From the NCBI GenBank assembly GCA_023379805.1, contig JAMCPI010000012.1, positions 221,777 to 285,776 of the forward strand: a DNA stretch of 64,000 nucleotides. The letters run 5' to 3'. Source of the DNA: Nitrososphaerota archaeon. Its GTDB lineage: Archaea; Thermoproteota; Nitrososphaeria; Nitrososphaerales; JACPRH01. Shown piece by piece: positions 6,674 to 24,230 of the stretch. The position numbers and the translations under genes are program-made. The stretch's first letter is position 1; each line of letters opens with the position of its first letter. The notes below the pieces were generated by a model, which worked only from the letters and a program-made list of their open reading frames with translations, did no database searches and was not told the origin of the DNA.

Positions 6674-9211
6674 TTATTCCTGAGCTAGAAGGTCGGGCTG
6701 CGTTTTCAAGACTGCTTCAAGTAACGGGCCGTCTATTGCTCCGATGTACTCCTCTACCCTTCGCCCCTGCTCGGTTTTGCGAGCAGAGAGGTAACGCCCC
6801 TTACCATGCTTCGTTACTTTTAGAGTGAAACCTTCCTGTTTGTAGCGATTGATTCTTTCTATCTCCAACTGAACTCTGCTGGCAGAACGGCTGCTGCTGG
6901 ATTGAACGTCATCACCGTTTTGACTGGCTGATGAAGCACCAGCAACGTCAGATAGATCTGTTTCTAGTTTTTGCGGTACTACCGCTGCTGTTGCCTCGGA
7001 TGTTGCGGTTTGGTCTAGCGGGGCTGTTGTTGCTGATGATGGTTCCGCTGTAGTTGTTACGTTTGCATCTGTTGTTATGGGTTGGATATCGATCTGTATG
7101 TTTCCTGCTACGTGCTTTTCTAAAATGTTCTCAACGATATTCCTGCCTTTCCCTTTCTCCTCAAACATTTTCCGAATATCTTCCCATCTCTTTTCGCTGT
7201 CAACAACAAAGACTGTTGGCAGTCCAAGGTCTAGGTTCTTCTCCCAGTTCTCATAGACCCTCTCAAGATGCTTCTCAGGTTCAGCTTCAACCTCCACAGC
7301 AAATCTATGGGGCGTATCCCATATCTCCGGGTTTATTTCTCGTCCACCTTTCGATGTGTCCACCTCCAGATACGGGTAGACTAAGATGTCAGGTAGTTTT
7401 CTCGCAGGCTGCTGACCGGTGTCGATGATGCAGTAAAAGCCGTCCCGATGATACATGTCGACTCTCTTTCGGATGAGGATGAGGTGAAGATCGCTGCCTC
7501 CCCTCTGCCCCTGAGGAAGAGTACGGAACTGCTCGATGCCTTTGGGAGATATGCTGTAGTATCTCTCCCTCCTCTGCCTATCCTTCTCAACACTTTCTCC
7601 TTCCTCACCCCCATCCGCCTTTTCTTTCCAGTGCTTCTCCTCATCCCTGTAAGTGATGAACCCCTCACTCTCCAGCAGGTGAACCGCCTTCTCCACAGTT
7701 TTGCAGTCTAGACCCCGGTCCCTCAGCAGCTTAGTGGCTAGCTCCTCTTGCGTCCACTCGCCATTCTCAAAGAAGAGCACTGCCAACACGTTCCAGCTTG
7801 ACGGTTTGAACCACTTAGGATAAGCAAGCTTCTGCTGATGTTGAGATTGAGTCTGAGAAGCAGCAGAAGTATACTGCTCTTTCACAACCGGTCTCCCGTA
7901 AATTCTCAGGCTGTGCTTGACCACTTCTTCTTGTTGCTGTTGCTGCACCGAGGATTGGTTGCTGTGCGTGATATCTATTGTCTTCAATGCTGCGAACTCC
8001 TTTACTCCCTTCACCTTTGCGCTTGCAGCGAACCAGAAGTTGGGGAGAGACACCAGCTGCTCATAGGTGTAGTAGGGCTGGAAGAACTCTTCAAGCGTCT
8101 GAGCTGTCTCCTTACCGACCCTAAAGCAGATCATCGTATCGCAAAGCGAAGGTATGGCTTTTGAGATCTCCTTAGGATACTGATCAACATACTGCGATGC
8201 GATGGTGGCATAAACCTTGTACTTTCTCAGCGCTTCAAGAATATCCTTCGTACTTGTGGTGGTGAACCTGTGCGCCTCATCAATATAGATGTAGTGGGGC
8301 ACACGCTTCTCCTCAGGCGTATCCTCTCGGCTCATCCCTGCAAAGAAGAGCCTTGCAAGGATGAGAGAGCCAAGAAAGTTGCTTAGATCAGAAGTTATCC
8401 TGCCTTCGCCAAGATTCACTATCACGTACTTCGACTCATCCATCAGCTGCCTGAAGTCGATGGAGCTCTCGTAGGCGTCGAATATCGGCGTAATAATTTT
8501 CTCCTGAATGATGCGGTATATCTTGGTGAGCACCGCGGAGCTCGCGTCGCGAGGCATCCGTTTGTACTCGTTGCACCAGAAGGTGAGAACCTTCGGATCC
8601 TTCACATTCTGCAGATAGGTGTCCCGAACCGCCTCATCTGCGATGATGTAGTAGAGGTCGGTGAGCCTCACCTCATCCTGATCAAGCAGAGCATACAGGG
8701 CATTCAGCAAAATCATGTCCAGCCGCGGGCCCCAGAACCGCTGGTAGATCTTTGCCAAAGAATCCATAAAGCTCCTCGCCACCAAGCTCCGATCAAGTTC
8801 TCCTGAAAGCTGGAGAAAGTTGATCTTGACCACGGAGCCGTACTGAAAAGCTGTCATCGGATCGATGTATACTACTCGGTCCCACTGATCTCTGGGGATG
8901 AAGGTGAGAACCTTCTTTGCCAAGTCACCATGAGGATCCATCAGCGTAAATCCGCTCCCATCCTGCACATGTTGGACGATTAGGCTGAGAAGAAAGGTGC
9001 TTTTCCCTGTGCCAGGGAAGCCGAACACCGCCGTATGCACCCGATCCTGCTTGAAGATTCCGTACTCCTTTCCTTCACGATCGGTTCCAAAGGTGTAGGT
9101 ATGACGATTTTGGAGGCGGGAAGTCTCGTTCGCTCCTTGTGTTTGTGGTTCCTCCTTTTCAACAGCCTTCTTCTCTGAAGGCTGCCCCAATATTTTCCTC
9201 AACAGGTTCAT
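6674..9211 (-). CDS. VirD4/TraG-type coupling ATPase of a conjugation-like system
   Basis: Walker A lies at residues about 64-71 (GFPGTGKS), followed by the typical LMDPHGDLAKKVL strand, and Walker B is at about 306-313 (IYIDEAHRF) with a following ASQ motif. This is the HerA/VirD4 motor layout. After the motor, a winged-helix region (about 440-520) and a long tail (to 845) with an acidic Ala/Thr-rich linker probably read DNA or partner proteins. No N-terminal membrane helices are present, as in soluble coupling proteins. I take ATG at 9211, which makes an ATGA overlap with the upstream membrane-protein gene; a TTG two codons earlier is possible. Such proteins deliver DNA to the transfer channel. 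Confidence 0.8.
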   Translation of the reverse strand: MNLLRKILGQPSEKKAVEKEEPQTQGANETSRLQNRHTYTFGTDREGKEYGIFKQDRVHTAVFGFPGTGKSTFLLSLIVQHVQDGSGFTLMDPHGDLAKKVLTFIPRDQWDRVVYIDPMTAFQYGSVVKINFLQLSGELDRSLVARSFMDSLAKIYQRFWGPRLDMILLNALYALLDQDEVRLTDLYYIIADEAVRDTYLQNVKDPKVLTFWCNEYKRMPRDASSAVLTKIYRIIQEKIITPIFDAYESSIDFRQLMDESKYVIVNLGEGRITSDLSNFLGSLILARLFFAGMSREDTPEEKRVPHYIYIDEAHRFTTTSTKDILEALRKYKVYATIASQYVDQYPKEISKAIPSLCDTMICFRVGKETAQTLEEFFQPYYTYEQLVSLPNFWFAASAKVKGVKEFAALKTIDITHSNQSSVQQQQQEEVVKHSLRIYGRPVVKEQYTSAASQTQSQHQQKLAYPKWFKPSSWNVLAVLFFENGEWTQEELATKLLRDRGLDCKTVEKAVHLLESEGFITYRDEEKHWKEKADGGEEGESVEKDRQRRERYYSISPKGIEQFRTLPQGQRGGSDLHLILIRKRVDMYHRDGFYCIIDTGQQPARKLPDILVYPYLEVDTSKGGREINPEIWDTPHRFAVEVEAEPEKHLERVYENWEKNLDLGLPTVFVVDSEKRWEDIRKMFEEKGKGRNIVENILEKHVAGNIQIDIQPITTDANVTTTAEPSSATTAPLDQTATSEATAAVVPQKLETDLSDVAGASSASQNGDDVQSSSSRSASRVQLEIERINRYKQEGFTLKVTKHGKGRYLSARKTEQGRRVEEYIGAIDGPLLEAVLKTQPDLLAQE

Positions 9212-10377
9212 AGACAAAAACCGGCTTCACTATCTTCGCTTTTCCTAGTGAATCTTTGGTCAGCTGAGGCTATCCCAACTCTTGTAGAGGGTGTGCCTCC
9301 GAACTGCACTGGAATCTTCTTCAGCTGCGACGGCAGGTTCACAAGAAGCCCTAACTCCTTGGATGACAGAATTATCGGGTAATGGTTTCTGAAGGCCACG
9401 CCTAGGACGAAGGATGTGGAAGCTGCGAGTAGCAAGGTGGAGTAATCGGTGAAGGTAGGTTCGCTGCTGAGGAAGTGGATGGGGTTGAAGAGGCCTAGCC
9501 AAAAGGAGAGCGCCACCATAGCCAAAGGAGCGATCTTCCAAAGATGGTTCAGGAGCGGTCTTACCAGAGGTTTAGAAGGCTCAATTATTTCACCTATGTG
9601 CGGTTCGTCCCGCATCATCTTCTTCTTGTTCTGCTTGGGTTTGGATGCTTTGAAGCTGTTTAGGCCGTAGTTAGGTAAAGAGTCCGCAATAACCTTGAGG
9701 TCTTCAGGAGTATTGCTGTATATTCTGATACTGACTAGGAAGAGGTTGCTAGTAGCTTTCTTCCGAGCCTCATCGCTCAAGGCTTGGAGTGAGGGGCTCA
9801 GAGTCTTTCTCTGAGAGTAATTCTCTCGGTGGCGTGTAGTGCTCTGCCCAGATGCTAATGCACCTAGGATTCCGAGAAACACCTCTGCAAAGCTTTGATG
9901 GAAGGATTCGCCTTTCACCGTTTTCTTCAGCAAATACCGTTCTATCTCGAACTTGGCTCGATCATCCCGCTTTGCAGTTACTTCCAAGAAGCACTCATCT
10001 CTAATCATGGCTTGAGCAATAGTGTCAACAGGATTATCCTTCGATTCTGGCGTAGTAGCAGAAGGAGCAATCGGCAGCGCCGGGTTCTGAGCCAGCTCCA
10101 GACTAATCTGGTACTGGAATGCCTTTTTCGGAGGCTCAATCTCAACTATCTCAGCATCGATAACTGATGAAAGAAAGTTTCTTACGAAGGGTTTGAGGGT
10201 CTCGTTTACTTCGAAGAAGAACTGTAGGGTCTTTCGCCCCTCAACTGTCGGGCTTTCTCCATACTTTATCAGAAACCTGAACGATTCTCCTGAAGCGTGC
10301 AAGGCATTGAGCTGGTTGATGAGTGCTTGGGCTTCGACTTTGGCTGTCTGCAGAGGTCTGACTTCAAGCCAAGGCAT
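9208..10377 (-). CDS. Conjugation-cluster membrane protein with cytoplasmic domain
   Basis: I choose ATG at 10377 (MPWLEVRPLQ) because the upstream extension overlaps the preceding gene for 90 nt and is basic and atypical. The roughly 390-residue product has a soluble alpha/beta N-terminal region of about 270 residues, then two close hydrophobic segments (PLAMVALSFWLGLFNPIHFL and TLLLAASTSFVLGVAF) and a short tail. It overlaps the coupling-ATPase gene by ATGA. A membrane protein translated directly ahead of a soluble VirD4-like motor is a plausible membrane anchor for it. No family name assigned. Confidence 0.6.
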   Translation of the reverse strand: MPWLEVRPLQTAKVEAQALINQLNALHASGESFRFLIKYGESPTVEGRKTLQFFFEVNETLKPFVRNFLSSVIDAEIVEIEPPKKAFQYQISLELAQNPALPIAPSATTPESKDNPVDTIAQAMIRDECFLEVTAKRDDRAKFEIERYLLKKTVKGESFHQSFAEVFLGILGALASGQSTTRHRENYSQRKTLSPSLQALSDEARKKATSNLFLVSIRIYSNTPEDLKVIADSLPNYGLNSFKASKPKQNKKKMMRDEPHIGEIIEPSKPLVRPLLNHLWKIAPLAMVALSFWLGLFNPIHFLSSEPTFTDYSTLLLAASTSFVLGVAFRNHYPIILSSKELGLLVNLPSQLKKIPVQFGGTPSTRVGIASADQRFTRKSEDSEAGFCL

Positions 10378-10853: not shown

Positions 10854-11438
10854 TTACTTGGAAGCCTTTCTGCTTCTTCTTGCAAGCTGGATGCCTCCGT
10901 AGATCAACCCGCCTACGACTACTACGCCGCCCAAATACTGCAGCAGAGTGAGGAGGTTGTTCACCATCGTGATTAGAGCTGCTGGTAGGTTGCTGCCGGG
11001 AGCGGTAGGATCTATGCCTGTGAGCCAGAACGCTACAGGTTTGGCTAGAAACATCACAGCCCCTCCTAGAACGCCTCCTGCAATCACCTTCTGCGCCCTA
11101 GCCTGCTCCTCCGCGCTCTCGGCTCTCACCAGCTGCACAAGTATTGAAGAAAGAGCGGAAATCACGACTACTCCAGCCAGCCAAGTGAAGAACGCAAAGT
11201 TTTGATCAAGGGGAAAGAAGAATGAAAATAAGGGTAAGATCGCAAAGACCCGGCTTTGCAGAAGAATCTTGTCAACCTTCTCCTTTATCGCTGTCCGGAC
11301 AAACTCAGATCTATTCTTGAACCCGGCCTTTTCCATAGCCTGCTTAAGCATCTGTGGCAAAGGCTGCTGAAGGTCTACTGAAACGTGAAGAAGAAGCTTG
11401 CTATTGTCGTCGTCATGATCACCATCATGATTTTCCAA
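10854..11438 (-). CDS. Ribbon-helix-helix domain fused to VirB2/TrbC-like membrane region
   Basis: Residues 14-60 form a recognisable ribbon-helix-helix unit (strand LLLHVSVDLQQ, helix PLPQMLKQAMEKAGF, then NRSEFVRTAIKEKVDKIL). It continues directly into a hydrophobic part with about four membrane segments. The last two, an AEEQARAQKVIAGGVLGG start and a GGVVVVGGLIYGGIQLARR end, resemble the two-helix pilin-like VirB2/TrbC/CedA1 proteins. A DNA-binding domain on a pilin-like membrane protein is unusual. It is the first gene of the minus-strand group leading to the coupling ATPase, and a perfect palindrome sits just upstream, suggesting autoregulation. Confidence 0.6.
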   Translation of the reverse strand: MENHDGDHDDDNSKLLLHVSVDLQQPLPQMLKQAMEKAGFKNRSEFVRTAIKEKVDKILLQSRVFAILPLFSFFFPLDQNFAFFTWLAGVVVISALSSILVQLVRAESAEEQARAQKVIAGGVLGGAVMFLAKPVAFWLTGIDPTAPGSNLPAALITMVNNLLTLLQYLGGVVVVGGLIYGGIQLARRSRKASK

Positions 11439-12707: not shown

Positions 12708-14585
12708 TCAAGATGAATCAGGCGTGGTCGAATCACTCGGCTTGGTTGTAAAGAGCGCATACTCCTCCTTTGATGCGAGGAATTGGATTGGGACATGGAC
12801 ATTTTCAGCGATGAGAATGCCCTGTCCCGGCCTGAGATCCACAATCTGATCTCTCTCCATCTCTGACAGGCCGAAGGTCTCCGCAACCGTGTTGGCGGAA
12901 CTCTCATCCTGCTTTAACAGGATCTTGGTGGCGCTGTTCTCGATAATTGTTCTTCCAGGCCCCGGCTTATCCCTGCTCTCACCTAAAACATCGGCGGGTC
13001 TTTGAGTCATGACCAGAAAGAGGATGTTTCTCTTTCTTCCAAGCCTTGCTGTCCGCTCTAGAAACTTTGCTGCAGCTGGAAGAGCCATGTAGAGCCACGC
13101 TTCATCAACTACAACTATCTTCTCAGCCTCTCTGGCAATGAATGCGTCGTCGTTAAGCATCTGCCATATCTTACCGAAGATCAGTATCGAGATGACCTGC
13201 TTGAGGAATTCGCTCTCAAGGTTTCTGAGCGAGAAGACCATTCTCGGCGTGAACTCCAAAGGCTCACCTTGAAAGATAAAGGCTTCAGGCCCGCGCACGA
13301 TACTTTCCAGGTACTGCTTAACGTTTCCCGGCAGATCTGTGTAGAGATCCTCTAAGTTCCTGTGTTTGTTCACAAGAGTCCTTAGCGTGGCATGGCGCTG
13401 TGGTGGAAGATGGGTTATGTCGGCGATTATGTCTGCGGCTTCTAGCTTAGAGAAGATACTGATGGGATCCAGACCCAGCTTCTCTCCGGGAGAGAAGGTG
13501 ACCACATTGGCCCCTAGGAGTTCCCCAATCTTTCCATACTCATTCTCAGGATCTATTATGAAGAAAGGCGTTCCCTCTTCCCTTTTTTGAAGCATTCTTG
13601 TGAGTAGCATCTTGGATGAGAAGGATTTGCCTGAGCCGGTCACACCAAGTATCGAGATGTTGTAGTTGCTGCGCAGATATGGGTCAAAAAGTATTGGAGC
13701 ACCGGTAAGCCTATTCATTCCTAGAAAGAGTCCGTCGGGGAGCTCGATTACATCTGCGCTTACGAAGGGGAAGAAGGTTCCAGCTGTAGCTGTGTCTATA
13801 ATGAGCTTCTTTCCTGCGCTTCCAGTTGCCATATGATATTGGAAATATCTTGGTGAGTCAAGCCTTATCATTCTGCTTTGAAGAGTATCCCTGACAATCT
13901 TCGCATTTGCGTTCAGTTCCGCTCTATCCTTGCCTGAGACGGTGAAAACTGCTCGGGCTTCGAAGAGCCTGCTTCGACCGGATATGACTGTGTTTAGCGC
14001 CTCTTCAGCCATCTGGTACTTGAGCAGCCTCTCCGCATCCGGTGTTCTTCGCCTAGCCTCATCGGCTAGAAGCGTGCCTCTCAGGAACTTCACATACTTG
14101 TTTGTCTTGACTGTTGCTTGCTCAGGAGGTATGGGTTTCAGCTCGACAGATACCTGCTCTGAGGCGCCGTAGGCTTCGCTGATGAAGCCCTCCACCAGCT
14201 GCCCGGGCAGCGTGTAAACTGTGTAGGACTTCATTAACCTGCCTTCAGGCAGAACAAGGTGTTTTGGGAAGACTCTGACTACATCAAATTTCGGGGTCTC
14301 AATGACTCTCTGGTAAAGCAGTCCAAAGATTGACAGCAAGTTATCCAGCGCTTCGCCGTAGCTTTCAATGAAGAAGCGGTAATAGCTCATCTCAAAGCTC
14401 TCCTCCCCCTCTGAGATGTTTATCGTCCTGCTTCCCTTCGCCACCAATATTCTGACTCTGATGTTCAGTGCGTTGAGGAACTGGTGGAACCGGTTGATCA
14501 GCTCCTCCTGCTTTACTTCGGGTAGCATGATGAAGTTGACCGGCATCACTTCATAGGTAAAGACCTGCTCGCCATTCTTCTTCAT
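12708..14585 (-). CDS. VirB4/TraC-type conjugation ATPase
   Basis: 625 residues, close to the usual VirB4 size for archaeal and Gram-positive systems. An N-terminal region of about 300 residues is followed by a RecA-like motor with Walker A at 314-321 (GVTGSGKS), FFIIDPENEYGKIGELLGAN at about 340, Walker B at about 490-496 (IVVVDEAWLYM) and a MTQRPADVL motif. VirB4 proteins energise pilus assembly and substrate transfer at the membrane. Its ATG overlaps the stop of the PrgI-like gene (ATGA), the same gene pair as in Gram-positive conjugation operons. Confidence 0.85.
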   Translation of the reverse strand: MKKNGEQVFTYEVMPVNFIMLPEVKQEELINRFHQFLNALNIRVRILVAKGSRTINISEGEESFEMSYYRFFIESYGEALDNLLSIFGLLYQRVIETPKFDVVRVFPKHLVLPEGRLMKSYTVYTLPGQLVEGFISEAYGASEQVSVELKPIPPEQATVKTNKYVKFLRGTLLADEARRRTPDAERLLKYQMAEEALNTVISGRSRLFEARAVFTVSGKDRAELNANAKIVRDTLQSRMIRLDSPRYFQYHMATGSAGKKLIIDTATAGTFFPFVSADVIELPDGLFLGMNRLTGAPILFDPYLRSNYNISILGVTGSGKSFSSKMLLTRMLQKREEGTPFFIIDPENEYGKIGELLGANVVTFSPGEKLGLDPISIFSKLEAADIIADITHLPPQRHATLRTLVNKHRNLEDLYTDLPGNVKQYLESIVRGPEAFIFQGEPLEFTPRMVFSLRNLESEFLKQVISILIFGKIWQMLNDDAFIAREAEKIVVVDEAWLYMALPAAAKFLERTARLGRKRNILFLVMTQRPADVLGESRDKPGPGRTIIENSATKILLKQDESSANTVAETFGLSEMERDQIVDLRPGQGILIAENVHVPIQFLASKEEYALFTTKPSDSTTPDSS

Positions 14586-15244
14586 TTCATATCCCTCTTC
14601 GCAACAAGATCTCTTTGCGCTGGCTGCACGTTAACTACGAGTGTTTCCAGAACCTGCGTGTAGCCTTCAGGTTTTACCTCAACCTTGAAGGAGCCATACG
14701 ATTCTGGTATGAAGTAGACTGTGAAGAAGCCCTCATCGTCGGTGCTGCCCTTAGTGTAGGATTTGCCTTCAACAAGCACCTCAAACCCTTTTCTCTGGAT
14801 CGCCCTGCCGGTGGCTGGATTCTTCAAAACACCCACAACCTTCACGGGAACTATGCTCTGTATATCCTGAGTTGATATGTTCAGAGCCTTAGCCTCCAGA
14901 GGTTTGGATGTAGACTCTGTCGCAGGTGATGCTGGGATGGGCTTTGGTTTCGGTATTAATTTTGTTGAAGTGGAGGAGGACAGCATAAGCAGGATACACA
15001 TCTCAGGTGTTACTGTCTTGACCCTCTGAAACGCAAGAGCTAATCCAACGATGAAGATAGATCCGCCAAGGAGAAGTTTGAGCATCGCGTCAAAAGCAAG
15101 TGATGTTGCTCCCCAAGCTAACGCACCAAAGGTTACTATGATTAGCATCTGCCTGAATGTAAGTTTCCCGAGAGGAGTATCAAAGAAGGGTTCGCGGAGA
15201 AAACTCAACTCCTCAAACCAAAGGGTCCGTATCACTCTAGGCAT
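14582..15244 (-). CDS. PrgI/VirB3-like membrane protein with C-terminal carboxypeptidase-regulatory-like domain
   Basis: The N-terminus (FFDTPLGKLTFRQMLIIVTFGALAWG and a second helix LLLGGSIFIVGLALAFQRV) matches the two-helix PrgI/VirB3 layout, and it sits directly before VirB4 as those genes do. After a Pro/Ser linker the last 80 residues (VVGVLKNPATGRAIQRKGFE, GFFTVYFIPESYGSFKVEVKPEGY) form a carboxypeptidase-regulatory-like beta-sandwich, which is not part of ordinary PrgI proteins. A leader of about 8 nt is likely, from a TTTAAAG box near 15279. Confidence 0.65.
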   Translation of the reverse strand: MPRVIRTLWFEELSFLREPFFDTPLGKLTFRQMLIIVTFGALAWGATSLAFDAMLKLLLGGSIFIVGLALAFQRVKTVTPEMCILLMLSSSTSTKLIPKPKPIPASPATESTSKPLEAKALNISTQDIQSIVPVKVVGVLKNPATGRAIQRKGFEVLVEGKSYTKGSTDDEGFFTVYFIPESYGSFKVEVKPEGYTQVLETLVVNVQPAQRDLVAKRDMK

Positions 15245-15400
15245 TAGTAATCAACAAAGACGGACATTATGAAGACTTTAAAGCGGAGTCAACAGAGGAT
15301 TTAGATCGTATAATTTGGTGTAATCATGAATTAGGATACCCTGACACACAAAGTCATCAAAATCGAATAGCATTACCGTTAAATACAGCTGTCAAATCAA

Positions 15401-18217
15401 ATGACTGCGAATTTTGCGTTGTCAAGATATGTAGCTTCAATAAATCTTCAATGGCAAGACTACACTGAGCGTCACAAGGAGGTCAGAAATTACCTCGAAC
15501 AGAGAATAAAAGAATATCTCGACGGAAAGAAAGTAAATCCAATTGCAATCAGGGGCGGAATAGGACAAGGCAAAACTCAGCTCCTCTATCACGCGTTTAG
15601 ATATACTTGGGAGAATGGCGGTATCGCACTTTACACGACTTTGGACAGGCTTTTGCCACAACAAGATCTTCCCCCTAATACCTTTGCTGAACACGTAGAT
15701 ACGCTGGTTCAGGAGGAATTAGTGAAGTTTCAGACAGGGTCGATATCCACAATGGTGCTTCTAACAGATGATATGAAGGCGTGGTTGGAGTCCCAGAGAT
15801 TTCAAAGTAATTCTAACTGCCCGGTGATATTGGTTGACGAAATGGAGCGAAGTTACAGGCAGCTTCTGACAAAAGTACCTACGGATGACAGAAGCCCGCT
15901 CGGATATTGGCTTGAGCATACCAAGTATCTTCCCATCGGAGCCTTTGCCCCTCTTTCGCACTATGAAATACTGTATGGGGAAGCTGAAAGAAGGCGGTGG
16001 GATACGGTCACTTTACAGCCGATAAACGCAACTGTACTTCGGCAACGTGAGGGTAGCCCCGGAAACTTAGTTTGGTGGTTATCCCGAGGTAGACTCGGTA
16101 TCTCATATAAAGCGGGAGACGTAATCAGTAAACAGCTACCAAGTTCTTACAAGGAGTTTGAGGAAGCGGCGCAAGCAATTGGATCAGTAGCCGAGGTGCC
16201 GGCGGCTGACCTAGATGTCTTAGCGAGCATTTCCAACACGTCTGGCGCGCTGAAATATGTAGCTGAATTATTTCCACATGAACAACAGGACTTAACGCAT
16301 CTTACTGATGGACAGATTGTACAGACAACAGAAGTTGTTCGTCAAATCAAGTCCGCCCTAAAGGATCAGGGATGGGATAGTAGGTCAATAGAGTTCTTTG
16401 GTTACTACCTCAACATTATCACTGATGCTCTCTCGATGGATGGCAAATTCCTACTTCCTGACAGCCATGAGGAATTCTGGTCTCTCTTCAAGTTGGCAAT
16501 GGACCTAGCAGTTGAAACTGAAACCTCGGAAAATGAGACTGTCAGAAAAATACTAGATAAAACAAGCGATCTGGAGGAGGGAGGCAAGTTTCCCCTTCTA
16601 TACTATACTGGCCTATTTCAACGGCTGAGGAGAGACTCTAACAGCCGAGGGTCTGTATTGTCGTATACAGAAGTTTCCAACTTATTTCCTATGCCAATCA
16701 CTTCCCCAAGTTTTGGCGGCATATCGCCAGCTGAGGCAAGGGACATTCTGCTCAGCAAGCAAAAAGATGCATTCCTTGGAACGGACCTAATCTCAACAAG
16801 TAGAGGAACGATTAAGTTTCTCTATTTCATTAATCCTACCAAAATGAATGAGTACCTATCTTCAGGTGAACTTCTAAACTTCATTCCACCGCATATGGGA
16901 GTCGTTTGCATTCTTCTTGGCGGCGATACGCACGAGATTGAGCCGAATGGGGTTGCAGCATGGCTTAAGGAGAATGGAAGGTTACGGATAGAAAGCCCCT
17001 CTAAAGCTGTTCTTGGTGACTTTCTAGCCTGCTTCTCAGCTTGGGCCCTTGAGAAAGGAGTAAAGGGAAGTACAGATACCCTTACGGGTCTTATCGAAAA
17101 ACAGATAGAAGAATTAGGCGATTCCGAGAAAGAATTGGGTAGAAAGGCTGCACATTATCTGAAGATGTTGACAACATTCTTGGAACTTTCGTTAAGTGCG
17201 CTTCTGCTTGATCAAACCAAGTTCTCAACAAGAATTTCCAAGGACGCTGTAGTTCGGTACGGGACTCGCTACAAACGTTTCGCTGATGTTGTTGGACTTG
17301 CATTCATTGATAGCAAACAGGAAAGAGAGTTAGTGTACCGGTTCCGAAAGCTGCTTCAGGACAGTAAGGAGTTGAAGGAGCTGCGGTCGGGAATTTCGGG
17401 AATGCTAGATGACGTATCGTATACAGCTAAAAAGGATCTGGCTGGTCCGTTGCAGAACATAAGGGCAGATTACGAGCCGCTACTCCAAGATCTTAAAAGT
17501 ATTGCGCATTATGTTTCTGAGGATGACTTTTGCAGGCTCGCTGAAGACACAGAAAGCAAAACTATACTCATCGGCATATACCGATTTGTTCGGACTCCAG
17601 CCTCACTAATCAGCTTGACTGAGGCAAGAACAGTATCATCGAAAATAATCTCCAACATCGAATCACTAGCCAAAGAACGAGAAAATCTAGCCGATTCCCT
17701 CAATATCAAGTTGCAGCCATCCGCAAGCGAACGGAATTATCACCAGATAACTGAGTTAGATAGTATTTTGGGCAGTTGCAGTGATGCATCACCATTTATT
17801 CAACACCTCTTGGCCGATTTTGCCAAGCAAGTACTCACCGACTTTGAAGATGAATATCTGCACAAAGATCAAACAACGCTCAGCAAGTGGCAAGGCAAGA
17901 CGGATACGGCCACCACTTTTAAGCAGAAGTTAGAAGTAGTCAAGACACTTAGCAATGAGCTATATGAATGGCTTGGGGTGACTAGGGAACAGGTTTTGGC
18001 CGGACTTGAAGAGAGTTATAAGAAGTCAATTGAGGCATTGACAAGATACAACCAGCAAGTAGATTGGGATAATGTAGACGGACTAGAATGGACACCGTAT
18101 GAAGAGGGTATCAGTGGTGCAACCGATATGATTCAACAATTTGTAGACCTTGATACCGACCTAAAACGTACTCTGGCGCTTGCGAAAGAAATCAATGTCA
18201 AGCTTAAACAAAGGTGA
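15401..18217 (+). CDS. Large P-loop ATPase, first gene of a three-gene cargo operon
   Basis: 938 residues with Walker A at 52-59 (GGIGQGKT) after the strand NPIAIR, and Walker B at 142-148 (PVILVDEME). These define an AAA+/STAND-like N-terminal motor of about 350 residues. The rest is mostly helical, with Glu/Lys/Leu-rich coiled-coil-like stretches. The architecture (N-terminal NTPase, long helical remainder) resembles defence ATPases such as BREX BrxC/PglY in outline, but I see no specific signature and no methyltransferase or BREX neighbour. The stop overlaps the GTG of the next gene (GTGA). It is inserted on the opposite strand inside the transfer cluster. A TTAAATA box about 22 nt before the ATG suggests a leaderless transcript. 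Confidence 0.7.
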   Translation: MTANFALSRYVASINLQWQDYTERHKEVRNYLEQRIKEYLDGKKVNPIAIRGGIGQGKTQLLYHAFRYTWENGGIALYTTLDRLLPQQDLPPNTFAEHVDTLVQEELVKFQTGSISTMVLLTDDMKAWLESQRFQSNSNCPVILVDEMERSYRQLLTKVPTDDRSPLGYWLEHTKYLPIGAFAPLSHYEILYGEAERRRWDTVTLQPINATVLRQREGSPGNLVWWLSRGRLGISYKAGDVISKQLPSSYKEFEEAAQAIGSVAEVPAADLDVLASISNTSGALKYVAELFPHEQQDLTHLTDGQIVQTTEVVRQIKSALKDQGWDSRSIEFFGYYLNIITDALSMDGKFLLPDSHEEFWSLFKLAMDLAVETETSENETVRKILDKTSDLEEGGKFPLLYYTGLFQRLRRDSNSRGSVLSYTEVSNLFPMPITSPSFGGISPAEARDILLSKQKDAFLGTDLISTSRGTIKFLYFINPTKMNEYLSSGELLNFIPPHMGVVCILLGGDTHEIEPNGVAAWLKENGRLRIESPSKAVLGDFLACFSAWALEKGVKGSTDTLTGLIEKQIEELGDSEKELGRKAAHYLKMLTTFLELSLSALLLDQTKFSTRISKDAVVRYGTRYKRFADVVGLAFIDSKQERELVYRFRKLLQDSKELKELRSGISGMLDDVSYTAKKDLAGPLQNIRADYEPLLQDLKSIAHYVSEDDFCRLAEDTESKTILIGIYRFVRTPASLISLTEARTVSSKIISNIESLAKERENLADSLNIKLQPSASERNYHQITELDSILGSCSDASPFIQHLLADFAKQVLTDFEDEYLHKDQTTLSKWQGKTDTATTFKQKLEVVKTLSNELYEWLGVTREQVLAGLEESYKKSIEALTRYNQQVDWDNVDGLEWTPYEEGISGATDMIQQFVDLDTDLKRTLALAKEINVKLKQR

Positions 18218-19419
18218 TAATATTGGATATTAAAGAGCTGGTTAGTCAAAAGTCAAATGAAGTTCTAGGGATAGAAGCGAAGCTGAAGGGTTTATCTGAA
18301 GTAACCGGAGTACCAGAAAACATTCCCCCATTGTGGAACGGAGACTTGAAGCAACTAGGGGGCTTTGTAACTGAGTTAGAAGAATGGGTAAAGAGCCCAA
18401 AGGTAAAGAGAGCCAAGCAAATCATAGAAGTGCTGAAGAAAGGTTGCTTGGATAAGCGCGGATTTCAAAATATCCCAGAGGGCTATCTAGTATCCAGCTT
18501 AACCGACTTGGAGACTGCTTTGACTCTTTTCAATGGAAGATGGGATAATCGGCTAAAATCTAAGTTCGCGAAAAATATCCTTGACGAGCTTTTAATGCAA
18601 GGCTCAATCGATACTATTGCTGAAGAATTGAGCAAATATAATTCCGCGGTACAGGAACTAATTGATGAAAAAGTGGTTGGTGATTTTCTTGAGCTTGTCA
18701 AAAAGAGCGCCGTGGATCTAATCTTAGAGTCGAAAGAGCCTGACTTCACAGAAATTGAAGTCGCACGAAAAAACTTGGAGAAAGCCCGAAACGCTATCGA
18801 ACTGCTCGATGGTTCAGGTATTAGTATGAGCGCATACACTAAGAGTTTCAGCAGTTCAAAATCAGTTGACATCGTTTGGCAACAGGCAAACAGTATACGA
18901 GAACTGCTTAACAAGACCGCTCTTAGATTCACAGCGCCATTAGTTGAGCCGTTCGCTAAGGCAGTAGAAATTGATCAAGAAAGGGTTCAAAGTCTTCAAA
19001 AGGAGACATTAAGTGATGTGCAGAAAGATTTGGAAGAGAACTATCGATTGCAGAAAGAATGGCGAAAGCAGTTGCACGAGGCTTTTATTCAGGAGTTCGA
19101 CAGAGTGAGCATATTACTGAACATTGCTAATCTCAATGTAAACTTAGACGAAACAAAAATACAATTCGCAGAGAAGATCAATGACTCACAGGATGTCCAA
19201 GAGCTTTTTACCCTGTACTCAAGACTATTAGAAGCAAAGCAAGATGCGATGAAGGTTCTTGAGAGCCGGATTTCGGATCCGAACCAGAGAAGAATTATTG
19301 AGAGTATTGACGATGCTGATGAACTAGCCGAGGAGATGGGTGAACAGTTTTGGGATGCACTGAAGGAACTCAGAAAGTCGGGTCTAGTTAGAATACATCT
19401 CAGTGGTGGTATGGAATAA
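18214..19419 (+). CDS. Coiled-coil protein, second gene of the cargo operon
   Basis: 401 residues, nearly all helical with repeated heptad-like Leu/Glu/Lys patterns (ELVSQKSNEVLGIEAKLKGL, DVQKDLEENYRLQKEWRKQL). No enzymatic motif, signal peptide or membrane segment. The GTG start at 18214 overlaps the ATPase stop, and a TTG at 18223 is an alternative; either way translation is coupled. It probably scaffolds or regulates the ATPase. The family is not recognised. Confidence 0.65.
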   Translation: MIILDIKELVSQKSNEVLGIEAKLKGLSEVTGVPENIPPLWNGDLKQLGGFVTELEEWVKSPKVKRAKQIIEVLKKGCLDKRGFQNIPEGYLVSSLTDLETALTLFNGRWDNRLKSKFAKNILDELLMQGSIDTIAEELSKYNSAVQELIDEKVVGDFLELVKKSAVDLILESKEPDFTEIEVARKNLEKARNAIELLDGSGISMSAYTKSFSSSKSVDIVWQQANSIRELLNKTALRFTAPLVEPFAKAVEIDQERVQSLQKETLSDVQKDLEENYRLQKEWRKQLHEAFIQEFDRVSILLNIANLNVNLDETKIQFAEKINDSQDVQELFTLYSRLLEAKQDAMKVLESRISDPNQRRIIESIDDADELAEEMGEQFWDALKELRKSGLVRIHLSGGME

Positions 19420-19433
19420 GCGACGAAACCAAG

Positions 19434-19829
19434 GTGCATGAATTTATCGAGAAGTACAGAGGGAGCTGGAATGTTAAAACTAAGTATGGCGAAATTGTAG
19501 TTTCTCTTAGACCGTACAGAATCGGTTACGGAAGCCGAAGAGGAAGGCCCGATGAGCTAATCGAAGTTGAACTACGCATCTCAATATTGGGTGAGTGGGC
19601 TTCGATTGTGGCCCCGATATTGATTGAAGCAGAAACTAAAGGCGGATTGAGTTCTGCTGAAGAAGATCTAAGCGAGTTTTCCAAGAGGACAAGAGCAGGC
19701 GAACAAGACAGCCATTTGAGTATCCCATATTTAGTAATAGGCAAGAAACGTCAACGTACTCGTACAGATACTGTTCTTCCAGTCAAGGTAAAGGCTGTAG
19801 AATTACCAGAAGGAATAATCAAGGAATAA
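19434..19829 (+). CDS. Candidate PD-(D/E)XK-fold small nuclease, third gene of the cargo operon
   Basis: 131 residues starting at GTG 19434, 15 nt after the coiled-coil gene. The core has a strand ELIEVELRISIL, then a hydrophobic strand with the acidic-x-Lys signature (PILIEAETK), a helix SSAEEDLSEFSKR and a final strand SIPYLVIGKK. This order is that of restriction-endonuclease-like folds, with E...ETK as the candidate active site. The assignment is by eye; a non-catalytic member of the fold or an unrelated alpha/beta domain is possible. As partner of a large ATPase and a coiled-coil protein it would complete an anti-invader system. Confidence 0.45.
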   Translation: MHEFIEKYRGSWNVKTKYGEIVVSLRPYRIGYGSRRGRPDELIEVELRISILGEWASIVAPILIEAETKGGLSSAEEDLSEFSKRTRAGEQDSHLSIPYLVIGKKRQRTRTDTVLPVKVKAVELPEGIIKE

Positions 19830-19886: not shown

Positions 19887-19920
19887 ATTTTATAGATGTA
19901 TCCACTCATCTACAAGTGGA
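19887..19920 (+). promoter_or_regulatory. TATA box and palindromic operator for the ribbon-helix-helix gene
   Basis: A TTTTATAG box at 19887-19894 is centred about 29 nt before ATG 19920, fitting a leaderless transcript. Between them TCCACT (19901-19906) and AGTGGA (19915-19920) form a perfect inverted repeat that ends at the start codon. This is the expected place for an autoregulatory repressor site. Confidence 0.55.
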
Positions 19921-20177
19921 TGAAATTGGGCGAGAGTAAAAGGACCTGGAGCCTGAGGCTGAGTCCTGAAACTATCTCTGTTATAGAGAACATTATGAGT
20001 GACGTGAAGATGGAGATGGTGAGAAGCCAGAAACGGAGCTGGAGCATCTCTGAAGAAGAGATTTTCAAAGAGGTGCTGAAGGAGTTCCTTAGAAGCCTCA
20101 AAACCAAGGATAAAGCAAGATACGAAAACATAGTGAAACAGATAGAACTAACAGGCGGAGGAAAGTTCTTTGAGTGA
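19920..20177 (+). CDS. Putative ribbon-helix-helix regulator, 85 aa
   Basis: Begins with KRTWSLRLSPETISVIENI, a short basic strand followed by a helix as in ribbon-helix-helix proteins, then a second helix (SEEEIFKEVLKEFLRSL). I prefer ATG 19920 over 19896 because a TATA box lies 29 nt upstream and a palindrome separates the two. It is probably a small autoregulated repressor; it may control the upstream cargo operon or only itself. Confidence 0.5.
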   Translation: MKLGESKRTWSLRLSPETISVIENIMSDVKMEMVRSQKRSWSISEEEIFKEVLKEFLRSLKTKDKARYENIVKQIELTGGGKFFE

Positions 20178-20234: not shown

Positions 20235-20978
20235 ATGATTGTTTTGCAGGAAGGAGAGCGTATCATAAGGCAGGATGACGCTACTCTTGAGAGTGAGGGA
20301 AGATCTCTTGGCGAAGGAGCGCTCTACCTTACCAATACAAGAATAATGTTCGAATCAAAAGAGGGCGGAATACCACGTATGTTGACAATTCAGATGATTC
20401 AAGCGACTACACTACTGAGGGAGAACCGTTTAGCCATATCGTATCTTAGTGAAGATGGTCGCGAGATTCATACCGACAAATACAGGCTGAAAGGTCATGC
20501 ACGAGTTGAAGAGTGGCATGATGACTTCGATGCATTCCTGAGCAGCCGGCGAGGTGGTGCTCAAGAGAGTGGGCAGAAAGAAATACTGCCAGCTCCCGAT
20601 ATGTTCACAGATGAGAACGTATCGCAGGCCCACGGAGATGAATCCGCAAGCACTGTGAAAATTGATTTAACCAGCAAGACGATGAAATGGCAAAAGATTC
20701 CTAGCTGGAGAAAGTTCCAAGACGAGCATATCTGGCAGGGAAGGCAAAGAATGGGAGATATGACCAAGGAACAATGGTTTGCCTACAAACAGGAAGCATC
20801 AATATTAGACAAAAAACTGAGCGAGCTTCGTATCGATTACTTCGAAGCTAAGAAGAGGGATAATAAAAAGAGAGGAAGAGAAATCAAAGAGGCGATGAAA
20901 ATAGTCGATTTAGAACTTTACGGAAAAGGAGATGTCCCATATACTAGCATCAAAGCCGATACTTGGCCCGAAAACTGA
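20235..20978 (+). CDS. PH/GRAM-like domain protein, 247 aa
   Basis: Residues about 5-105 look like a PH/GRAM beta-domain: VLQEGERIIRQDDATL, then GEGALYLTNTRIMFESKEGG, the pattern of such domains (x-G-x-LYLTxxRI). After a polar linker the last 90 residues are basic and helical (KWQKIPSWRKFQDEHIWQGRQ, then KKRDNKKRGREIKEAMK) and could bind nucleic acid. No membrane segment. It is the last plus-strand gene of the cargo block and converges on the VirB6-like gene. Confidence 0.55.
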   Translation: MIVLQEGERIIRQDDATLESEGRSLGEGALYLTNTRIMFESKEGGIPRMLTIQMIQATTLLRENRLAISYLSEDGREIHTDKYRLKGHARVEEWHDDFDAFLSSRRGGAQESGQKEILPAPDMFTDENVSQAHGDESASTVKIDLTSKTMKWQKIPSWRKFQDEHIWQGRQRMGDMTKEQWFAYKQEASILDKKLSELRIDYFEAKKRDNKKRGREIKEAMKIVDLELYGKGDVPYTSIKADTWPEN

Positions 20979-21015: not shown

Positions 21016-22746
21016 TCATTCATCAGTACTAGGTTCAGCCTTTTTATTTTTGAATAGGCTATTCATTAGAGCATCTGTATTCGAAGGATACTCTTGGTAT
21101 CTTAATGTGCGTTCTTTCTGTCTTTTCTGACCTCTGAAATGATTGACCTCGTTCTTGAGATTATCGGAGAAAGTAGATTTGTTCTGGTTAAGTCTCGCAA
21201 TAGTTTCCTTTGGTGGAGATCCTCGCTCTTTGAAGAGATCTAAGTGATGGGATACTCTACTCGCGAGCTGAGGATGCTGCTTCAGTGTATCTACGAAACT
21301 CCTAAATGATTCTGCAGTGCGATGTGGATCTTCTGCTAGAGACGGCTGACCCATCTGATCCGCTAGTTTTTCGGACAATCTATCATCACTTAGATCCGTA
21401 ATATCATTTACGTACTGCCAGCCGTGACCAGCACTTTCTCCTTGGATCGGCTTGAAGGCGATTGATGCGAGAGTTCCTTCAAGCTGAAGGCGGGCTGTAT
21501 CATATGATGCTGTGTCGCGGATGGTTTGAAGCTGGCGTCCCATTACCTGCGAACCGAGTGAGACTCTTCTGGGGAAGCCTGTGCCGTCAAACCTTAACCC
21601 TCTTGAAACGGCTAATGTACCCTGTGTAAACCCGCTTGTTCCACCTTTCATCATAGCAGGCGTCATCAGCCTGAGGCCATGCGTGAAGCCTACCACTCTA
21701 TTTCCTAGTCCAGCACGTAGTCCAGTACCTGCGAATGTTGATGCTGGGCCGAAGACATTCCCTATGCCTCCTGCTGTCTGGATAACGCTCAATCCGGCTG
21801 TACCTGCACCGACTGCAGATACACCCCCGATGACAGTGGCTGCTGTTCCACCTGCCGTTATTACTCCCGCGGTGGTTGAAAAGACGCTTCCCAATCTGGG
21901 TGCGAGCACAGTAGGCATCATCGCAGCCGCTACGAGGGTGCCGAAAGCTGCAAGCATAGCCAGCAGTCCACCCCACTGCTGAATCACCTCGAAGCCGAAT
22001 CTTAGAAAGATCGCCGCTATCACACTAGACAGCATCAAACCGATAAGCATCTCAATCAAGGACTCCGCAACCCCTTTGGTCAGCGGAATAAGCCTGAGAA
22101 TTAGCAGCAGAGGAAGCATCACCACCAAAGCGCCAACAAAGAATATTCTCAATGCGCCTAGAACCGCTATCGCCACCAGCGCTATCAAGTCGATGATGAA
22201 TACGAAGATTGCCATGATGTAGTTGAGGAAGGCCTGAGCGGCATTGACTGGTGGAGGGCTGATCGTTGTCTTTAACACACTCATTATCATCCCAGGTTCC
22301 AAGATCAATTTTGAACCTGGATCGGTGAGCACGTTGAAGAGCGCTGCTACCGCATTGTATATTGGTAGGGTGAGGAAGATTACGATTAACGTGAAGACGC
22401 TTCCGGTCAAGATGCCTGATGCTGTTCCCTCCCTCATCACCCCGAAGGACTCCAGCGCATAGCTCAAGCCAGCCACAAGCAGAACTACCGCAAAGAAAGC
22501 GAGCGACACATTCCTGATGACTTCAAACACATTCACCATGGCAGGACCAATACCGCCTGCAGCGACATCGGCTATTGGGAGCTTGACGAGGAAGAAGTAG
22601 ACTCCACCTTCTCCACCTAGGCTGTTCAGGATTAGCTCGAAGGCGCCTGCTAAAGAATTGGTGAAGAGCTGAAAAAGCAGGGTGAAGAACTGGTTAGCCC
22701 AGTCTGAAGGATCTAGAGATATCGGGAGGGAGCTCACCAGCACCAA
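21016..22746 (-). CDS. VirB6/TrbL-like polytopic membrane protein
   Basis: 576 residues. The N-terminal 290 contain about seven hydrophobic segments (VSLAFFAVVLLVAGLSYALE, LTGSVFTLIVIFLTLPIYNA, FVIDLIALVAIAVLGALRIFFV, and LLAMLAAFGTLVAAAMMPTVLA). The C-terminal half is soluble, Gly/Ala-rich and then charged. This topology and the link to VirB4/VirD4 suit a VirB6/TrbL-type channel protein. The cargo block 15401-20978 separates it from the PrgI-VirB4 pair. A decayed copy of its 5' end lies at 25858-25950. Confidence 0.65.
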   Translation of the reverse strand: MVLVSSLPISLDPSDWANQFFTLLFQLFTNSLAGAFELILNSLGGEGGVYFFLVKLPIADVAAGGIGPAMVNVFEVIRNVSLAFFAVVLLVAGLSYALESFGVMREGTASGILTGSVFTLIVIFLTLPIYNAVAALFNVLTDPGSKLILEPGMIMSVLKTTISPPPVNAAQAFLNYIMAIFVFIIDLIALVAIAVLGALRIFFVGALVVMLPLLLILRLIPLTKGVAESLIEMLIGLMLSSVIAAIFLRFGFEVIQQWGGLLAMLAAFGTLVAAAMMPTVLAPRLGSVFSTTAGVITAGGTAATVIGGVSAVGAGTAGLSVIQTAGGIGNVFGPASTFAGTGLRAGLGNRVVGFTHGLRLMTPAMMKGGTSGFTQGTLAVSRGLRFDGTGFPRRVSLGSQVMGRQLQTIRDTASYDTARLQLEGTLASIAFKPIQGESAGHGWQYVNDITDLSDDRLSEKLADQMGQPSLAEDPHRTAESFRSFVDTLKQHPQLASRVSHHLDLFKERGSPPKETIARLNQNKSTFSDNLKNEVNHFRGQKRQKERTLRYQEYPSNTDALMNSLFKNKKAEPSTDE

Positions 22747-22958: not shown

Positions 22959-24230
22959 TTGTTGCTACCGGTAAAGGCAATTCAGTTCAGATACAGAGCT
23001 TCGAGTGAACTTGACTCTCTCTTCGAAGGTTTTCGCTTAATGTGCAACGATGCGATTCGCATCGCGTTCATGGAGAAGCCTAAGAGCAGGTTCAAGCTAA
23101 TCGAATCAGCCTACTTCCGCCTTAAGCAATACGGGCTTCATACCCACTACCTCTTGTCAGCATGCGAGATAGCCTACTCAGTTTATAAGAACAAGAATAG
23201 AAAATCGAGCCCTTATGTTAAACAGGCATTCCTCAAGCTCGATAACCAATCCTACACTCTGAACCATATGCTTCTGAGAATCCCGGTCAGGCCAAGAGAG
23301 TTCATCTACCTCACGCTTCAAGGATCAGATTATCATTTCCAGTACATCGATGATCCGACGCTCAAGAGAGGCTCAATTACGCTGGGTCGCAACAGCCTGA
23401 GCATCGCCTTCTCAAAAGAGGTTGCTGATGAGATTAAGCCTCTAGGAAATGTTGGTATTGATGTAAATGAGAGGAATATAACAACGTCCGATACACTAGG
23501 CGTTACAACCGCATTCGACACATCTAGCGTAATGGAAGTCAAGGAACGTTATAGGGCAATCAGGGCAAAGATAGGACGACAAACAAGACAGGACGTAAGG
23601 ATTAGCCAGAGACTCTACGCCAAGTATGGAAGAAGAGAGAAGAATAGAACAGTGCAACGACTCCATATCGTGTCGAAGAAGATTGTTCAGCAGGCCAAGG
23701 AGAAAAAGCTCCGCATCATCATGGAGAATCTGAAGGGGATAAGAAAACTCTACAGGAAGGGCAACGGCCAAGGCGCATTATATCGTGGACGAATGAACTC
23801 ATGGACATTCCGTGAAGTTCAACGCCAAATCGAGTACAAAGCAGCATGGGAAGGCATACCCGTAACTTATGTGAATCCGAGAGGCACATCCCGAAACTGC
23901 CCAGAATGTGGCTCCCGCGTCGTTATGCTGGCAGAGAGGAAACTCTACTGCCCAAGATGCGACAAAACATGGGATAGGGACGAACTAGCCTCACTAAACA
24001 TAATGAGCAAGAAGAAGATGAAGAAGATGACCTGCGTGGTTCCGCAGGCTCGGTCATCCATAGATGAAGCTGTGAAGGGGAACGAGCAGACAGTCAGACG
24101 AACAGCTCCAATCCTCCAAGCAGAAGGATGGAAGTTAACTCTTGTCCCGAAGAGTTATCAGAACCTAAAAGCGGGTTCTGTATATCTGCCGCATCGAAAC
24201 AGTCATCATAATCCCATAGATATGGGATAA
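22959..24230 (+). CDS. tnpB: TnpB-type RNA-guided nuclease / IS605-family OrfB
   Basis: 423 residues with the RuvC-like triad: D168 in VGIDVNERN, E256 in RIIMENLKGIR and D341 in WDRDELASLNI. A four-cysteine zinc finger lies between the last two (C314, C317, C331, C334; CPECG and CPRCD). Known TnpB proteins are RNA-guided DNA nucleases encoded in IS200/IS605 elements, with the guide RNA arising from the 3' end of the element. No TnpA is present, so the element is non-autonomous. The start appears to be TTG (22959 or 22962). A GGGTGAT/ATCACCC stem at 22814-22849 may mark its left end. The tail after the DRD motif is unusually long (about 80 residues). Confidence 0.85.
   Translation: MLLPVKAIQFRYRASSELDSLFEGFRLMCNDAIRIAFMEKPKSRFKLIESAYFRLKQYGLHTHYLLSACEIAYSVYKNKNRKSSPYVKQAFLKLDNQSYTLNHMLLRIPVRPREFIYLTLQGSDYHFQYIDDPTLKRGSITLGRNSLSIAFSKEVADEIKPLGNVGIDVNERNITTSDTLGVTTAFDTSSVMEVKERYRAIRAKIGRQTRQDVRISQRLYAKYGRREKNRTVQRLHIVSKKIVQQAKEKKLRIIMENLKGIRKLYRKGNGQGALYRGRMNSWTFREVQRQIEYKAAWEGIPVTYVNPRGTSRNCPECGSRVVMLAERKLYCPRCDKTWDRDELASLNIMSKKKMKKMTCVVPQARSSIDEAVKGNEQTVRRTAPILQAEGWKLTLVPKSYQNLKAGSVYLPHRNSHHNPIDMG

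Follow-up and report, generated by a model that had tools for sequence, protein, structure and literature searches.

What is a three-gene plus-strand operon doing in the midst of an archaeal conjugation cluster? We addressed this question in a 64,000-nt window of contig JAMCPI010000012.1 from a Nitrososphaerota archaeon (genome G000 in our sample numbering, in which G labels denote genomes and L labels denote loci); coordinates given without a locus label are positions within this window. Comparison with relatives in other archaea leads us to read the operon, genes A, B and C, as probably a restriction-type defence cassette that a conjugative element carries as swappable cargo and that would act without DNA modification. 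The three plus-strand open reading frames (ORFs) and the overlap between the first two lie exactly where the initial annotation of this DNA had placed them:

15401–18217, plus strand: gene A, 938 aa, ATG start, AAA+ ATPase of predicted ORC/Cdc6 type.
18214–19419, plus strand: gene B, 401 aa, GTG start, coiled-coil-rich protein with a C-terminal winged-helix-like domain.
19434–19829, plus strand: gene C, 131 aa, GTG start, candidate PD-(D/E)xE nuclease.
15245–15400, intergenic, divergent from a PrgI-like gene: presumed cassette promoter and, from synteny with loci L088 and L089, left edge of the cargo slot.

The start of B overlaps the end of A by 4 bases (GTGA) and C begins 14 bases past B, and the cassette has a lower GC content (0.42–0.45) than the DNA alongside (about 0.49). 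We detected no direct repeats flanking A-B-C that would mark an insertion.

The Walker A (GGIGQGKT) and Walker B (VILVDEME) motifs from which A had been called a P-loop ATPase are present and conserved among its homologues, in which K58, D146-E147, R199 and R231 (N222-WW-R231) are invariant or nearly so. In an AlphaFold2 (AF2) model, residues 17–184 reach predicted local distance difference test (pLDDT) values of mostly 70–91 and the remainder is poor. A Foldseek search with the ATPase domain places ORC, Cdc6 and DnaA on top (E about 1e-5) and the BrxC N terminus at rank 41, and from this model, which is reliable in the ATPase domain alone, A is predicted to be an ORC/Cdc6-type AAA+ ATPase. 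Enzymes of this type act as oligomers on DNA. R199 lies between helix 188–197 and strand 201–204 of the model, and by position we assign it the putative arginine-finger role (between helix 4 and strand 5) and R231, after the WW motif, the putative sensor-2 role. The model further suggests that the C-terminal half of A (about 535–937) is long and helical. The B alignment retains a C-terminal block, LGLxxEExxxLI...LCxxGIxRCxV, that is winged-helix-like, and in each of five pairs compared B has diverged more rapidly than A, as expected of a recognition part; the two features together would suit a DNA-contacting or sensing protein.

Conventional searches assign none of the three proteins to a family. 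Pfam, NCBIfam, PADLOC and PHROGs return only weak P-loop or coiled-coil matches for A, B and C, a sequence search of the Protein Data Bank gives just chance-level and generic coiled-coil or P-loop matches, and among 400 genomes of the order a single-sequence search recovers the self-match only. Pattern scans of genome contigs and viral contigs with A, A1 (the haloarchaeal gene introduced below) or C find no relatives, so no viral carrier is seen at that sensitivity. By contrast, a translated plasmid search detects A on two haloarchaeal plasmids, one from Natrialbaceae AArc-T1-2 (NZ_CP127176) and the other Haloquadratum walsbyi PL100. Both carry a four-gene operon of unnamed proteins, of 554, 551, 513 and 139 aa in one and 572, 562, 792 and 136 aa in the other. 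The first gene (A1) corresponds to the N-terminal half of A, at E 1.7e-19, and the second (A2) matches the C-terminal half of Thermoproteota A (hhalign score 53.6; maximum over 120 column shuffles, 23.0), from which we conclude that A is split in two in haloarchaea. The third gene encodes a coiled-coil protein with a winged-helix-like end segment that resembles B, the fourth shows a weak match to C, and the order is thus A1-A2-B-C, so that the three-gene cassette recurs beyond the window genome.

Searching 398 Thermoproteota with a profile built from the N-terminal part of A retrieves members in nine further genomes (E <1e-15), and four additional genomes of family f32 also have A and B adjacent. 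B directly follows A (or A2) in 15 of 15 intact loci, comprising the window, the two plasmids and twelve other genomes. The conserved co-occurrence that had been proposed as a check on the operon is therefore found for A-B-C on the two plasmids and for A-B throughout, and the same order in other archaea makes the pairing more than chance. A-B-C is a member of an as yet unnamed archaeal family, whose basis is the strict pairing of A and B. Among 390 genomes of the class, the window genome alone has a true A, which fits recent acquisition; the other weak matches resemble generic P-loop proteins and were discarded. A tree of the ATPase region joins the window A to haloarchaeal A with 100/100 support on a long branch, a grouping to be held loosely.

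The partners of A-B elsewhere point to the function of the cassette. In G474, G627 and G697, A and B are followed by a DpdJ-like helicase, another large protein and a DpdK-like phospholipase D (PLD) nuclease, and in two of these genomes an HEVCHH-motif protein precedes A. A DpdA match above the curated cut-off lies no more than about 2 kb from this operon. G711 splits the same content over two contigs, A-B-J1 on one and J2-K-DpdA on the other. The following loci in Thermoproteota have DpdA beside A-B, a split DpdJ-like helicase and a DpdK-like PLD nuclease:

L026, 1213–15805: archaeal Dpd-type locus.
L027, 6776–18733, with L096, 1453–6035: archaeal Dpd-type locus; the DpdJ-like helicase in L027 matches PADLOC at 3e-40.
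L028, 3712–16397: archaeal Dpd-type locus.
L032, with L097: archaeal Dpd-type locus.

Bacterial dpd loci that we retrieved have DpdG-H-I-J(-K) at the corresponding places. The A-B pair of family f38, patchy in its distribution (3 of 25 genomes), thus sits inside a 7-deazaguanine restriction locus, at the places of bacterial DpdH and DpdI. Dpd islands are described as widespread in bacteria, with archaea unmentioned (PMC11888242). By genome context, the nearest known system to A-B-C is the restriction half of Dpd (DpdD–K): its DpdH-I-J-K order of large P-loop ATPase, coiled-coil protein, helicase and PLD nuclease has A-B of f38 in the first two places. The window locus differs from it in having no DpdA, DpdJ or DpdK and, as its third gene, a small PD...ExE protein. 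The DpdJ helicase and DpdK nuclease present in the f38 relatives are absent beside the window cassette, and the only DpdA match in the window genome is weak (1.7e-4) and typical of a tRNA-guanine transglycosylase (TGT), whereas G474, G627, G697 and G711 do have DpdA. As a separate observation, two of the four Dpd-type loci listed above open with the HEVCHH protein, an HExxH-like motif, and G474 has, beyond DpdA, a BrxD-like ATPase (5.5e-9) and another TGT-like gene, and its locus also encodes a winged helix-turn-helix-like protein.

Other lineages combine A-B differently, so that the recorded partners are a small PD...ExE protein, a DpdJ-like helicase and DpdK-like PLD nuclease with DpdA, or a DEAD helicase. 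The last is seen in G643, where A-B is followed by a 130-aa protein and then the helicase; a 90-aa ORF upstream of A in the same genome (L029 7503–7775) has a PD-(D/E)xK-like motif, DPFLIEIKVSS...QI, and may encode an effector there. In G664 (L031 534–4900), a truncated A (160 aa) lies directly beside cas1, cas2, cas4 and a likely cas6/csa3, of which Cas1 was confirmed by profile and the remaining cas genes were read from sequence.

The setting of the cassette within the window defines it as cargo. As initially described, A-B-C interrupts a minus-strand transfer cluster, but two more plus-strand ORFs follow it. The cluster has VirD4/TrwB-like, pilin-like, VirB4/TraC-like, PrgI-like and VirB6-like genes:

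6674–9217, minus strand: VirD4/TrwB-like protein (TrwB_AAD_bind 1.1e-4, DUF87 2.9e-7).
10854–11438, minus strand: protein like a type IV secretion system (T4SS) pilin (weak match).
12708–14585, minus strand: VirB4/TraC-like conjugation ATPase (TIGR02746 2.5e-27), 54% identical in G055 and G082.
14582–15244, minus strand: PrgI-like T4SS gene, left slot neighbour (weak match, E 0.12), 40% identical in L088 and L089.
19896–20177, plus strand: 93-aa ORF, element backbone, with a 57% identical homologue in L088.
20235–20978, plus strand: GRAM-domain ORF of 247 aa, element backbone (Pfam GRAM 2.4e-5); L088 and L089 each have a homologue, 38–42% identical, next to their VirB6-like gene.
21016–22746, minus strand: VirB6/TrbL-like membrane protein, right slot neighbour, named by position and length (no match in a Pfam scan), 54% identical and in the same place in L088 and L089.

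A syntenic conjugative element without A-B-C occurs in G055 and G082, where its VirB4 and VirB6-like genes share 54% identity with the window versions; the GRAM gene is kept in both and the 93-aa ORF in one (L088). Because they are kept where A-B-C is missing, the ORFs at 19896–20177 and 20235–20978 are element backbone, and this synteny led us to reject both as members of the system. The slot itself is filled by other genes, read from the sequence by eye:

L088, 9471–11373: GIY-YIG-like, AbrB-like and GNAT-like genes.
L089, 8598–9900: AbrB/VapC-type (PIN) pair and a GIY-YIG-like fragment.

A-B-C is therefore swappable, and the space between the PrgI-like and GRAM genes looks like a variable slot for defence or addiction genes. 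These comparisons bear on two other explanations. The position of A-B-C between transfer genes and divergent from the PrgI-like gene might indicate a part in the conjugation programme itself, in entry exclusion, transfer control or processing of transferred DNA; with elements that share 54% identical VirB4 and VirB6-like genes lacking the cassette, and with relatives on plasmids typed as non-mobilizable and on chromosomes with no recognised transfer genes nearby, we regard this as very improbable. The VapC/AbrB-type pair in the equivalent slot of L089 raises instead the idea of a toxin-antitoxin-like addiction module, in which C or A-B would be toxic upon loss of the element, yet a set of two large proteins that includes a seemingly active AAA+ ATPase does not resemble known toxin-antitoxin pairs and the A-B relatives live in restriction loci, making such a module, if anything, a shade more improbable still.

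If the cassette restricts DNA, C is its presumed effector. The initial annotation proposed the PILIEAETK core of C as a PD-(D/E)XK active site, and much of that proposal held: C has the motif P39-D40...E65-x-E67...D78, and the upstream P39-D40 as well as E65 and E67 are invariant among three homologues. C shares place and size with the 139- and 136-aa haloarchaeal genes (L002 and L003). The profile match between C and these proteins scores 23.9, none of 200 shuffles exceeds 19.9, and the PD and ExE residues align in register. ExE replaces ExK in some members of the PD-(D/E)xK nuclease group. From these features C is a candidate PD-(D/E)xE nuclease; elsewhere in Thermoproteota no convincing C homologues were found.

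Several results weigh against a restriction cassette. The lysine of the proposed active site did not hold up, as window K69 aligns with Thr and Ser in the homologues, leaving the ExE form. Synteny and a modest score are what support the probable homology of C to its haloarchaeal counterparts, and single-sequence AF2 gives C no confident fold (pLDDT 43.7). Two identities suggested by gene order were not supported: a profile comparison of A with DpdH aligns the P-loop alone (probability 29.7), and that of B with DpdI reaches a probability of 0.5. What A-B share with DpdH and DpdI is therefore position and build, not proven descent; one relative, the B of L027, has a weak DpdI match (0.014). Finally, family f32 has A-B in 11 of 20 genomes, throughout two genera, with conserved chromosomal neighbours and no adjoining nuclease:

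L030, L033, L034 and L114–L117: f32 loci, A-B as a two-gene chromosomal unit.

Because f32 keeps A-B alone, the pair can serve something that needs no effector, possibly a domesticated or housekeeping use. This clade-wide, vertical inheritance without a nuclease is the strongest caution on our reading. It fits a rival view in which A-B primarily maintains the chromosome or other DNA, acting as an ORC/Cdc6-like loader partnered by a coiled-coil protein; elements and restriction loci would have borrowed the pair, and in the window it would aid replication, segregation or stability of the element with C as an accessory. Replication initiators are indeed the best fold matches of A, and both other A-B-C loci are plasmid-borne. 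However, syntenic conjugative elements manage without A-B-C, the patchy f38 members lie within a Dpd locus, B is fast-evolving and the window already has a ParB-domain gene, and we consider a maintenance role unlikely.

A restriction cassette remains our preferred reading, and comparison with described systems indicates that A-B-C is not Wadjet, BREX, Lamassu or Dpd proper. The initial annotation had likened the build of the operon to the first three while finding none of their signatures, and library scans likewise return no match for the cassette proteins. That likeness goes unsupported by any library match, and the nearest system by context, the restriction half of Dpd, had not been considered; the defensive role it implied gains from the neighbourhood of the relatives (DpdA, DpdJ, DpdK and cas genes) and from the cargo position in a mobile element. 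Wadjet (JetABCD) shares the idea of plasmid targeting and the combination of motor, coiled coil and nuclease. The Wadjet motor is an SMC-like ABC ATPase, whereas A is AAA+ with no JetC match, and PADLOC finds no JetD-like Toprim protein among the window proteins. Lamassu (LmuA/B/C), in which LmuB is SMC-like, likewise joins a nuclease-like effector to an ATPase and a small partner, but no window protein has a Lmu match in PADLOC.

For BREX the likeness lies in the ATPases: BrxC/PglY and the BREX-related DUF499 and DUF6079 proteins resemble A in having an ORC/Cdc6-type AAA+ domain followed by coiled coil (PMC12839542). A nevertheless has no BrxC, DUF499 or DUF6079 match in Pfam, NCBIfam or PADLOC, the cassette has no PglZ, BrxX or BrxL, and at E <=1 none of its proteins matches BrxC/PglY, PglZ or the BREX methyltransferase in NCBIfam or PADLOC. 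A survey of BREX-related systems describes composites named BRC, which join BREX with Dpd parts and have PglZ and HerA/FtsK as their basis (PMC12839542). The f38 loci recall these combinations of HerA/FtsK, TGT and BREX-like parts in mixing a BREX-like ATPase with a TGT enzyme (DpdA and the BrxD-like ATPase), but PglZ and HerA/FtsK are neither found in the A-B-C cassette nor recognised among the f38 operon proteins.

With relatives inside a known DNA-restriction system, A-B-C probably attacks rival plasmids or viruses. Invading DNA would be contacted by the winged-helix end and coiled coil of B. A, with its Walker residues and its presumed finger and sensor-2 arginines kept, would load on this DNA as an ATP-dependent oligomer and remodel or move along it, and C would be the effector that cuts the captured DNA. 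Since the operon has no modification gene and the genome no DpdA, the choice between self and non-self is probably not based on a base mark and would depend on a feature of the incoming DNA. The benefit to the element would be the exclusion of competing plasmids or viruses. More broadly, and only tentatively, A-B may supply motor and sensor to an as yet undescribed superfamily of archaeal restriction systems, as a portable core that drives different killers in different lineages (a small ExE nuclease, a helicase with a PLD nuclease, or a helicase alone), with or without the 7-deazaguanine mark; the window cassette would be its minimal form, which needs no mark and serves a conjugative element against competitors. 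The occurrence of A-B both in an archaeal Dpd locus and in a mark-free cassette makes it testable whether the restriction half can discriminate self without a base mark, and A-B would offer an archaeal counterpart for the ill-understood DpdH/DpdI step. The defence systems of Thermoproteota, including ammonia-oxidisers, are poorly catalogued, and the A-B-C family is invisible to PADLOC, Pfam and NCBIfam.

Three further features of the window lie outside the cassette. The VirD4-like protein ends in a PD...VEVEAEP...ENW motif at about residues 590–700, kept in L089 and L094 and resembling a PD-(D/E)xE-type domain carried by a coupling protein; haloarchaeal C aligns with it in register, at a score (24.1 versus at most 19.3 in shuffles) that is suggestive at most. 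A TnpB/Cas12f1-like protein (22959–24230; Pfam TNB domain 1.3e-20) adjoins the transfer cluster. The genes of the region 39449–62559 are likely either further cargo of the element or chromosomal; they encode two P-type ATPases, a cation efflux protein, the ParB-domain protein, which adjoins a TFB-like factor, and a propeller protein resembling virginiamycin B lyase.

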